Source of the DNA: [Bacillus] enclensis
GTDB lineage: Bacteria; Bacillota; Bacilli; Bacillales; Bacillaceae_B
Length of the DNA: 64,000 bases
NCBI RefSeq assembly: GCF_001456935.1
Contig: NZ_KQ758483.1
Coordinates: forward strand, 186,001 to 250,000
Direction of reading: 5' to 3'
Every line of letters begins with the position of its first letter. Position 1 is the stretch's first letter. Shown here piece by piece: positions 1,268 through 52,812 of this stretch. The position numbers and the translations under genes were made by a program. The notes under the pieces are model-generated. The model did no database searches, was not told the DNA's origin, and saw only the letters and a list, made by a program, of their open reading frames with translations.

Positions 1268-1804
1268 GTGAAAAAGATACTTGCAAAACTATAAAACTAC
1301 CGTCTAAAGATGAACAATTTAGAGACGATTCTAAATAACGCTAATGATTTCCGTGCAAGACTTCGCTTTCCGGGGGCGATTGGTGAGCCTCCTTCGTATT
1401 CTCGCGGCAGATCCTGTCCAGCTCCGGCGGCTAGCCCCTTGAGGTCATAAGCTAAACGGACCAAAAAGGCAAAAAACGCCTTTCCGGCCCATTCATCTTA
1501 TGCTTGTCGGGGCTGAGCAAGCCGCCTCCGCTTTTCTATTGTCCAGCTTTAGGGCTTAGAGGCACATGAATTAAGTCAACACGTCCAAGAAGGCAAAGAA
1601 CGCCTTCGTGGACGATTCGTCTTATGCCTCACGTCCAAGCTCTTCCGCATTTCTGATTGGAGTCTTCGTCTTGCAATCCAATCAATCCCTGGAAAGTTCA
1701 AACATCTACTTATCCTATAAAACTAAAAACCCGAATTAACTTGCCGTTTTAAAGGCGAATTAATTCGGGTTTTACTTAGGATCAAAGACTTTTGTCCCAA
1801 TCTC
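1268..1804 (-). repeat. Modular palindromic intergenic element, copy E1 (reverse orientation)
   Basis: Fills most of the gap between glnK-amtB and the MATE gene; no protein gene is credible inside it. Read on the minus strand it starts GATTGGGACAAAAGTC two bases after the MATE stop. It continues with a terminator hairpin built on AACCCGAATTAA (1726-1776), then the outer arm GATTGCAAGACGAAGACTCC. Two nested hairpin modules follow (about 1407-1543 and 1541-1655), then the closing arm AAGTCTTGCACGGAAATC and an AT-rich tail. The same layout occurs at 27715, 42282, 46868 and 52387. The outer boundary near 1268 is approximate. Confidence 0.8.
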
Positions 1805-11629: not shown

Positions 11630-11760
11630 GAGTGTAGCTGGTTATAGTCCTTCTTTTAGTAAAAATATGCTGGAAATGGGGTGTGGAAGAGGTTTTAGGG
11701 TGGAGTATGAATATAAGGGTGATACCTGGATGTGTGTTTTGTAAGGCGTATTTCGGATTT

Positions 11761-11886
11761 ATGCTCCTAATTTGAAAAATACGTTCCTAATTCCAGATTT
11801 ACGATCCTGAAATGAAAAATACATTCCTAATCTGAAATTTACGGTCCTGAATTCAAAAATACGTTCCTAATTCCAAATATATGATC
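11761..11886. repeat. Tandem repeat with exact 20-bp period
   Basis: Six units of exactly 20 bp plus part of a seventh start at 11761, 11781, 11801, 11821, 11841 and 11861. Each begins AYGNTCCTRA and continues with an AT-rich half, alternating between two sub-types (ending AAAAAT or AATTT/AGATTT). This is the main content of the 412-bp gap between malR and the SDR gene; no ORF spans it convincingly. Confidence 0.85.
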
Positions 11887-16271: not shown

Positions 16272-16800
16272 TATGATTTTCGTGCATGACTTCGCTTTTC
16301 GTCGGTAGCCCGTGAGCCTCATGGCATTCTGGCGGCAGATTCCATCCCCGGATCCGGGGTCTATCTCTCGGGTGCCTGATTTGTTTTTTTTGAAGGTTTT
16401 ATGGAGGTTAGAAGCGTTCATGACTCAATATACGAAAAATATTATCTGTAAATCAGCGAATTGGCTCGATGAGTGTTATGGTGCAGCCAGAGGAAAAGAT
16501 TGAATCGAAGGAATCTTTTAATTTTGGCTATTATCTTTCGAAAACCAGCCTTTTTCTTTCAATTCCAGACAATAATCTTCGAATTCTGTGGAATAATCTT
16601 TGAATTTCCGGATTAATTCCATCACTTAGAAAAAATATCCAAATTATAAGAAGAATGGACCGAAACAAACAAAGAACACCTTTCATGATATTCATGTTAT
16701 GCTTATCGATTCTGATCTAAGCTCTTCCGCTTTTCAAATGAGCAACTCTTCCAGCAGGAGTCTTCGTCTTGCAATCCAATCAACGCTGGATAGTCTTCCC
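16272..16800 (-). repeat. Decayed copy E2 of the palindromic element, interrupted
   Basis: The 786-bp gap before yitT holds degraded ends of the element in reverse orientation. At 16281-16350 lies TTTCGTGCATGACTTCGCTT with GTAGCCCGTGAGCCTC; at 16715-16800 lie CTTCCGCTTTTC and AGGAGTCTTCGTCTTGCAAT with CCAATCAACGCTGG. The hairpin modules are missing. In their place is ~380 bp of unrelated AT-rich sequence that includes the 21-bp repeat cluster at 16512-16625. Confidence 0.65.
16512..16625. repeat. 21-bp-period repeat cluster (orientation A)
   Basis: Five units of the form AATCTTTNAATTTNNNNNATT, with the conserved C of ATCTT at 16515, 16535, 16556, 16577 and 16598 (spacing 20, 21, 21, 21). The units are the reverse complement of those at 62926-63016, so one repeat family occurs twice in the window. 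Confidence 0.75.
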
Positions 16801-27684: not shown

Positions 27685-27714
27685 GGTAAAAAAATGTTAA
27701 GAAAATTTTAATCT

Positions 27715-28215
27715 TACAAAAACCCGAATTAATTTGAATTTCTACCTTCAGATTAGTTCGGGTCTTTTAGTTTTGTCTTATTATTCGTAAATATTTTTGC
27801 TAGTACCAGCGGTTGATTGGAGTGCAAGACGAAGACTCCTGCGGGAAGAGTGGCTAATGTGAGACGTGTCTAGCTCCAGCGGCTAGAGGCTCGAGGTCAT
27901 AAGGTGAGCAAGCCAAAAAGGCAAAAAACGCCTTTCCGGCTTGCTCACCTTATGCTTGTCGCCTCTGGGCAAGCCGCTTCCGCTTTTCTATTTGTCCAGC
28001 TCCAGGGCTTAGAGGCACATGTCATAAGTCAACTCGTCCAAGAAGGCAAAAAACGCCTTCATGGCCGATTCGCCTTATGCCACCCGTCTCTGAGCAAAGC
28101 CCCTCCGCTTTTCCCACCCGCAGGAGCGAAGGCGACGAGGAGGCTCACGGGCTACCCGCGGAAAGCGAAGTCTTGCACGGAAATCATTAGCGTGGTTTAG
28201 AATCAGTACTGAATT
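27715..28215 (+). repeat. Modular palindromic element, copy E3 (two hairpin modules)
   Basis: Starts with a terminator hairpin (27721-27770, AACCCGAATTAATT ... AGATTAGTTCGGGT) that serves comZ. The outer arm GGTTGATTGGAGTGCAAGAC (27811-27830) follows. Module 1 (about 27869-27987) holds a perfect 17-bp inverted repeat, CATAAGGTGAGCAAGCC at 27898-27914 with its complement at 27938-27954. Module 2 spans about 27994-28113. The closing arm ACCCGCGGAAAGCGAAGTCT and GCACGGAAATCATTAGCG ends near 28195. The apparent ORF at 27904-28200 is the repeat read through. The FapR/fabHA promoter lies just beyond. Confidence 0.85.
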
Positions 28216-33742: not shown

Positions 33743-34010
33743 ATAAAAACCCACTCGTCCTTTTAATATAGGGACGAATGGGATGATATCCGCGGTGCCA
33801 CCCTAAGTACTCATTATGATGAGTCAGCTTAGTCCATGCAGTTTGCATGAAGCCCCTGTAACGTGGGACAAGCCCGTTATTCGCTAATCTGCAAGCGCAT
33901 TTCACAAATAAGGCTCAAAAGTCCATTCCCTAAAAAATGATTACTTGTTCACACCGGCCACAAGCTCTCTTGGAAATCATTTTATAGGTACTATTCTTTA
34001 TCAACGCCAG
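33743..34010 (-). promoter_or_regulatory. T-box riboswitch (Trp) controlling trpS
   Basis: On the minus strand the leader shows Stem I features (AGAGAGCTTGTGG with GGTGTGAACAAG). The specifier triplet UGG (33925-33923) lies in GGAATGGACTTTTGAGC. The T-box core AGGGTGGCACCGCGGA (33804-33789) is present, and the terminator stem CCCATTCGTCC / GGACGAGTGGG (33782-33750) is followed by TTTTTATTTT. UGG is the tryptophan codon, which fits the downstream gene. Confidence 0.95.
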
Positions 34011-34052
34011 AATATATTGATACCACTATTATAGTGAATCCATTCCTTCAAT

Positions 34053-42281: not shown

Positions 42282-42535
42282 AAAAAACCGAACCGATTAG
42301 CATTTCAGATGTCAAATCGGTTCGGTTTTTTTGCATGTACATCAGAATTTACTCTATTCAGCGGTTGATTGGAGTGAAAGACGTAGACTCCTGCGGGAAG
42401 AGTAGCTTATAAGAAAAGCGGAAGGGCTTTGAAGAGAGGCGTGTGTTATAAGACGAATCGGCCAAGAAGGCGCTTTTTGCCTTCTTGGTCGGTTTGACTT
42501 ATGACATGTGTACGGAAATCAATAGCGGTATTTAA
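42282..42535 (+). repeat. Palindromic element, copy E4 (shortened)
   Basis: Begins with a strong terminator (AACCGAACCGATT ... AATCGGTTCGGTT with T-run, 42282-42332) that ends the glycoside-hydrolase transcript. The outer arm GGTTGATTGGAGTGAAAGAC (42362-42381) follows, then one hairpin module in inverted orientation (about 42417-42507). It then jumps directly to TACGGAAATCAATAGCGG. The outer right arm is missing, so this is an internally deleted copy. Confidence 0.8.
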
Positions 42536-46867: not shown

Positions 46868-47307
46868 AAAGAGGACTGGGACAAAAATGTTTTGTCTGAG
46901 TAAAACCCGAACTAATTTGCACAAAATGCGGCAAATTAGTTCGGGTTTTTAATTTGTTAAAAAAACACTTAGGTTTTAGTCTTTTCTAGCGGTTGATTGG
47001 AGTGCAAGACGAAGACTCCTGCGGGAAGAGTAGCTTATGTGAGACCTGTCCAGCTCCAGGGCTTAGAGGCACATGTCATAAGTCAAACCGGCCAAGAAGG
47101 CAAAGAACGCCTTCGTGACCGATTCGCATTATGCCACCAGCCTCTAAACAAAGCCCTTCCGCTTTTCTTCCCGCAGGCTTGCCGAGGAGACTCACGGGCT
47201 ACCCGCGGAAAGCGTAGTCTTGCACGGAAATCATTAGCGATATAAAGAACCTATACTGATATTTTCGTCTTTATATGACAATATTTTAGTTTTGTCCCAA
47301 CCTCTTT
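46868..47307 (+). repeat. Modular palindromic element, copy E5 (best preserved)
   Basis: 440 bp, with terminal inverted repeats AAAGAGGACTGGGACAAAA (46868-46886) and TTTTGTCCCAACCTCTTT (47290-47307). Inside are a terminator hairpin with arms AACCCGAACTAATTTGC and GCAAATTAGTTCGGGTT (46903-46952), and the outer arm GGTTGATTGGAGTGCAAGAC (46991-47010). One hairpin module (about 47048-47167) and the closing arm ACCCGCGGAAAGCGTAGTCT with GCACGGAAATCATTAGCG follow. The ORF visible at 46997-47245 is only the repeat read in frame. No transposase; the element fills the cls-coiA gap. Confidence 0.9.
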
Positions 47308-50679: not shown

Positions 50680-50887
50680 CGTGGTACCTCCTCAGAAGGT
50701 TTATATCACTATATGACAAGCTGATGAAGTTCATTCATGGATTTTGACAATATTGTGAAATACCATACAAACAACTTGCCAATACAAGTTCATACATGAT
50801 ATATTATCAGTGTGAAGTTGATCACAAGCAAACATATACCCCTTTGTTTGACCGTGAAAAATTTCTCCCATCCCCTTTGTTCGTATA

Positions 50888-50919
50888 GAAAACCCGATGT
50901 TGGAAACAACATCGGGTTT
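50888..50919 (-). terminator. Terminator of yjbI-yjbH
   Basis: AAAACCCGATGTT / AACATCGGGTTTT, a 13-bp perfect stem with T-runs, 36 bp beyond the yjbH stop. Confidence 0.85.
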
Positions 50920-50954
50920 TCCCGTTACTCACGATATTCATTATTCTAAAATAA

Positions 50955-52386: not shown

Positions 52387-52812
52387 AGAGGCTTAACCAA
52401 CAGTGTTTTAGTCTAAGTAAAACCCGAACTAATTTGCAAAAGATAGGGCAAATTAGTTCGGGTTTTTAAGTTGTTCAAAGTGCATTTAGAGTTTAGCCCT
52501 TTCTAGCGATTGATTGGAGTGCAAGACGAAGACTCCTGCGGGAAGAGTAGCTTATAAGAAAAGCGGAGGGGCTTTGATCAGAGGCGTGTGGCATAAGACG
52601 AATCGACCAAGAAGGCGTTCTTTGCCTTCTTGGTCGGTTTGACTTATGACATGTGCCTCTAAGCCCTGCAGCTGGACAGGTGAGATCCCGGAGGCTCACG
52701 GGCTACCCGCGGAAAGCGTAGTCTTGCACGGAAATCATTAGCGGTATAAAGAACCTATACTGATATTGTTCGTCTTTGTATGGTAGCTTTTTAGTTTAGT
52801 ACCAACCTCACT
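52387..52812 (+). repeat. Modular palindromic element, copy E6
   Basis: About 426 bp with ends AGAGGCTTAACCAA and CCAACCTCAC. The terminator-like hairpin AACCCGAACTAATTTGC / GCAAATTAGTTCGGGTT is at 52421-52470, the outer arm GATTGATTGGAGTGCAAGAC at about 52506-52525, and one hairpin module lies in inverted orientation relative to E5 (about 52557-52678). The closing arm is at 52700-52742. Its right end lies 11 bp beyond the transglycosylase stop; it fills the 605-bp gap to yjbI. Confidence 0.88.

Follow-up and report, generated by a model that had tools for sequence, protein, structure and literature searches.

Structure of the element and its copies

The window, i.e. the whole analyzed stretch of 64,000 nt, corresponds to positions 186001-250000 of contig C2 in a 4.48-Mb genome of 18 contigs (G000), which is taken as Rossellomorea; its sister genome from the same genus group is denoted G020. 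Between a 501-aa gene, presumably encoding cardiolipin synthase, and a 395-aa gene, which we take to resemble coiA, lies a complete repeat element, E5, that starts at the seventh base past the stop codon of the former and ends 54 bases ahead of the latter. Its parts are:

46871..47304, + strand: E5, whole element, 434 bp once the host A/T tracts are left out; both ends found; terminator-like hairpin at this site in G020
46871..46886, + strand: left terminal inverted repeat, GAGGACTGGGACAAAA with one additional base
46902..46949, + strand: 19-bp terminator-like hairpin with a T tract at its close; covariation in 12 of 19 pairs, equaled in 0 of 500 shuffles
46984..47046, + strand: left arm of module B, with breakpoints in relatives and covariation
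47047..47169, + strand: module C, inner hairpin after GTGAGAC(C) within the loop of B
47170..47239, + strand: right arm of module B
47290..47304, + strand: right terminal inverted repeat, TTTTGTCCCAACCTC

The order of modules in E5 (end repeat, terminator-like hairpin, left arm of B, C, right arm of B, AT tail, end repeat) agrees with the one given in an earlier note on this DNA. The note described a 440-bp element at 46868-47307; the copy is indeed complete, but G020 has the outermost AAA and TTT in its empty allele too, and hence the element proper, as judged from sequence comparison, is GAGG...CCTC (46871-47304). The longest open reading frame fully within E5 has 82 codons and a TTG start, another one of 102 aa spans the left edge, and no transposase gene is found inside, so that the element is taken to be non-coding, as had been proposed.

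Pieces of the same family are present at all six places listed in the earlier note, namely, besides E5:

1268..1804, - strand: E1, reverse copy containing C twice; one end is good (1790-1804), the opposite one not fixed
16273..16784, - strand: ruin, in which B-arm remnants and a short C match survive
27702..28215, + strand: E2, two C modules; the orthologous G020 copy is without C
42282..42535, + strand: E4, truncated; G020 has a terminator-like hairpin here
52388..52809, + strand: E6, degenerate ends; C in reverse orientation

No recognizable end repeats were found in E2 and E4. Elsewhere in the window there are a 50-nt direct repeat in five overlapping copies with 20-bp spacing (11757-11886), and two Rfam matches, a T-box leader (33767-34013) and an RsaE/RoxS sRNA gene (50812-50921).

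The family is not confined to the window, a confinement that the earlier note had named as evidence against its proposal: copies are spread across the genome and occur in relatives. A search of the whole G000 genome with the 440-bp E5 query gave at least 59 matches (40 of 319 first-look candidates scored), with about 75-94% identity to E5 among the matches listed. In the 624 kb of G000 examined there are 33 family clusters, 14 of them with end modules; extrapolated from these 624 kb, the per-genome totals are about 240 clusters, about 100 of them with end modules. This abundance is far above chance.

In other Bacillaceae, a search with a 308-bp G016 copy gave a full-length match (73%) on a Cytobacillus spongiae plasmid and one over 80% of the length in Priestia megaterium; seven further plasmid records (nine records in total) match chiefly the B part. 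G010 has no match to the core of the G000 element, yet its MITEs contain a B-like palindrome (by eye).

Other insertions were observed in these genomes as well. Between the sister genomes, two insertions (contig C74 of G020, B1:40807-40979 and B1:173336-173518) consist of a repeat about 175 bp long (CTTTTCGTAAA...GCGAAAAGA). At about 233446-234324 of contig C1 in G000, an insertion of 877 bp, IS-like in appearance and with AACGGGTTC...GAACCCGTTA as its inverted ends, lies within a small hairpin.

Modules B and C

Module B is a palindrome, often holding a second palindrome, C, beside the 7-mer GTGAGAC. BLAST breakpoints in relatives coincide with the borders of C within B, and at two orthologous places (27.7k and 194.9k) C is present within B in G000 but absent in G020. 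C also occurs on its own: matches to C only, about 125 bases apart, are found in G015 and G023, and a fourfold array of C is an insertion in G020. By eye, 18 of 35 near-complete C copies stand right after GTGAGAC or GTCTCAC (with at most 2 bases between), three after a variant of the 7-mer with one or two changes, seven after another C, and seven after other sequence; within the B loop, C can thus be found to the left or to the right of the 7-mer, and sometimes on both sides.

The B palindrome covaries, with 11 of 33 pairs changed on both sides among 35 representatives, where shuffling would predict 2.0 and none of 500 shuffles came as high, the structure having been predicted from the same alignment, which favors this result. 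We also considered B as an independent mobile unit; B-only insertions exist, but with additional AT-rich sequence in them, and it was not possible to fix where they end. A separate repeat of about 530 bp (L318:14912-15444), with ends like GGCTCTTTTCGCAAAGATTGTTG, contains two B-type palindromes; it has many copies in G009, G013 and G016, and no Rfam match. B may be cargo common to several MITE families.

Ends shared with IS1182-family insertion sequences

The ends of the element (GAGGnTGGGACAAAA) match those of insertion sequences (ISs) of the IS1182 family in relatives. The pattern GAGGNTGGGACAAAA has nine copies in G000 and is present in 29 of the 41 genomes searched, the numbers being 61 in G010, 55 in G012 and 41 in G015, while the reversed control pattern gives 0 in G000 and three in all 41 genomes. 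Among 30 loci fetched around hits to the transposase domain PF13751, paired ends about 1.8 kb apart were found in four (L127-L130), single ends in eight and none in 18, allowing up to two mismatches in end pairs, and with several loci reaching contig ends or possibly containing other ISs. In all four paired loci a hairpin lies just inside both ends (by eye); the small element is alike at its left end. The 522-aa protein of L128, the one protein to which the family scan was applied, is an IS1182-family transposase (416.7 bits, cut-off 270) with Pfam DDE domains and DUF772. Relatives of the IS transposase with 69-80% identity are found in Mesobacillus, Cytobacillus, Terribacillus and Kurthia, and the IS end is matched over at least 80% on plasmids of Cytobacillus, Mesobacillus and Priestia (three of 143 records). 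PF13751 gives no hits in the draft G000 genome (18 contigs), and thus present mobility of the element there is doubtful.

Hairpins at empty sites

At the E5 site, G020 has AAAGCCCAAGG-loop-CCTTGGGCTTTTTTTT, while in G000 identical flanks surround GAGG...CCTC. Over two species pairs, a hairpin, usually terminator-like, is found in the empty allele for 12 of 14 insertions. For G000 and G020, an event in the two aligned regions required an end-module hit in one allele, and the other had to be free of modules and no longer than 130 bases. A stem score of at least 10 was observed at the empty site in nine of the 11 indels chosen by this rule; the cut-off, selected after the scores had been seen, equals the 95th percentile of 1000 random windows (the 99th being 15.5), and three of the nine positive scores are only 10.0-10.5. 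One of the two remaining events is without the right end, and the other falls within a 2.3-kb gap. Two additional cases in this pair, picked by eye and without end-module hits (E4 and 200.8k), both reach this stem score at the empty site. The second pair consists of G012 and G009, which are about 92% identical; here all three element insertions of the first region are located where the other genome has a hairpin (by eye). In two of them the fit reaches the foot of the hairpin at either side, while the left flank of the third is short by some more bases. The IS itself behaves similarly: for the IS of G004, a hairpin stands where the IS sits in 14 of 14 orthologous sites inspected by eye, out of 24 relatives with a match.

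By comparison, B-only or C-only insertions removed a hairpin in none of six cases (Fisher's test against 12/14, p=0.0007), and against all 21 control indels, six of which have a hairpin, p=0.001. As hairpins of comparable strength occur near six of 15 unrelated indels, and the cut-off is only the 95th percentile, the mere presence of a hairpin is not rare; what matters is that the occupied allele has lost it.

At the junctions inspected in the two species pairs, no target duplication was noticed. The flanks of 63 distinct elements have 72% A in the left six bases and 67% T in the right six, compared to about 33% each farther out. The possibility that stem feet are left outside the ends was rejected, as mirrored pairing there is about that of shuffled partners, except for position 1 (0.79 vs 0.66).

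The carried hairpin and gene context

In 39 distinct copies, the 19-bp hairpin by the left end has 12 of 19 pairs changed on both sides, compared to 2.7 in shuffles (0 of 500 as high). Sliding the partner by 1-3 columns leaves four to seven pairs, and the fraction of paired cells decreases from 93.5% to at most 55%. The fold, a GC-containing stem followed by a T tract, is under constraint. A consensus terminator scan called no terminator in E5, the loop limit of the scan being 8 and the E5 loop having 10 nt. Of the structured RNA suggested in the earlier note, the covariation of the hairpins stands, but no Rfam family reaches its gathering score at the elements of the window (weaker matches at E5 under relaxed limits look like chance), and for the hairpin adjacent to the end a putative Rho-independent terminator is the best interpretation.

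The position of the element relative to genes, as defined by a simple ORF rule, is consistent with this. None of the 14 clusters with end modules lies between divergent genes; the share is seven of 19 among clusters without end modules (p=0.012), and among intergenic gaps it is 90 of 451 (p=0.044). Moreover, as read from the table of sites, the element turns its hairpin-bearing end towards the neighboring gene's 3' end in 11 of 12 tandem sites (binomial p=0.003), one of the 11 being a rearranged copy with this end inverted.

Origin of the element

We consider the element to be a non-autonomous relative of the IS1182 family, that is, a MITE, which replaces host terminators with its own terminator-like hairpin (probability about 0.85). 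The matching ends, the loss of the hairpin relative to empty sites, the covariation and the position behind genes form the basis of this reading, and the first two of these support the MITE-like mobile element proposed in the earlier note.

The note also proposed a REP-like element. In this case, a RAYT (Y1 tyrosine transposase) would mobilize a REP/REPIN-type element, whose end repeats would be incidental. B and C are indeed palindromic, high-copy and intergenic, resembling REP-type repeats, some B-only insertions removed no hairpin, and G000 has three PF01797 loci. However, none of 20 PF01797 neighborhoods in ten genomes, these three and 17 from nine relatives, is flanked by B or C on both sides. 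Pieces of B/C occur in two of the 20: in L085 a whole B-C copy lies at a distance of about 2.5 kb, and in L099 a 23-base piece at about 230 bases; a 17-base match to the right tail was found in two further neighborhoods. Moreover, the empty-site borders of the composite are the GAGG ends and not those of B. We regard this origin as unlikely.

Somewhat less probable still is that a MITE merely prefers regions behind genes, hairpin loss being a by-product of the terminators common there. The hairpins near unrelated indels would fit this, as would the pneumococcal SPRITE repeats, which according to the accessible part of their description are likewise situated behind genes (PMC3049150); still, in 12 of 14 insertions the occupied allele lacks the hairpin, and the same holds where the IS itself sits.

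Finally, spread of host terminators or structured RNAs via gene conversion and segmental duplication, without transposition, is very improbable: copies at about 75-94% identity to E5 (among the matches listed) could convert each other, and C gain or loss within B could be conversion, but the empty-site borders match the end repeats at several unrelated loci, and ISs with identical ends exist. Segmental duplication without conserved ends, named in the earlier note as a contrary outcome, is likewise at odds with sister empty sites facing conserved element ends.

For the MITE related to IS1182, the most likely mechanism is that an IS1182 transposase, acting in trans, would recognize the ends of the small element and the target hairpin, and exchange one for the other. 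The inserted element would take the place of a hairpin, mostly a Rho-independent terminator behind a gene, with the left A tract and the right T tract retained. The host gene would lose its own terminator and gain that of the element, so that the upstream gene would still be terminated. As the element carries a terminator-like hairpin close behind one of its ends, the insertion would probably cost little, in keeping with the high copy number.

Relation to known systems

Stem-loop replacement has been described for IS1272, a member of the IS1182 family (PMC5678879, PMC4923244). According to the accessible parts of these papers, IS1272 and TnSha1 from Staphylococcus replace inverted-repeat or stem-loop targets, including terminators, and do so without target duplication. 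The element likewise appears to replace hairpins; unlike these transposase-encoding units, it is 0.3-0.5 kb long, non-coding by its sequence, has its own terminator-like hairpin, and reaches about 100 copies with end modules (extrapolated). SPRITE from Streptococcus pneumoniae, in the part of the source available, is also dispersed, resembles Rho-independent terminators and lies near gene 3' ends, but it ends with AAAA/TTTT and has no easily comparable empty site (PMC3049150), whereas the element has IS-matching ends and empty sites. The Bacillus families Bcr1, Bant-1 and Bhal-1 are stem-loop repeats as well; judging by their description alone, in the accessible part of the paper, IS1182 ends or terminator replacement are not mentioned (PMC2267715). 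GTAG/CGTC REPs with RAYT or TIRYT are palindromic too, and some RAYT-like genes have long end repeats, as far as the accessible text describes them (PMC3733652); unlike these REPs, no RAYT-type gene among our 20 loci has B or C on both sides.

Stem-loop replacement, MITEs and terminator-like repeats (SPRITE) are thus known singly. In the main text of the openly available papers searched, we found no description of a MITE both replacing terminators and carrying one, or of this Bacillaceae repeat family; the main text of a review of prokaryotic MITEs does not mention IS1182 (PMC10969869).

On balance, we tend to the view that the family represents a class of mobile terminators, in which the host terminator is exchanged, orientation included, for the carried one. 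About 100 genes of one genome may then end on transposon-borne terminators, the nested B and C riding along, with C as a site-specific parasite of B at GTGAGAC. If true, this would explain the high copy number of a gene-less element in a compact genome, as the element lands on a hairpin and supplies the function that it removes. It would also provide a natural experiment on terminator exchange, old and new terminators being paired across species, and a mechanism for a repeat family of the Bacillaceae.
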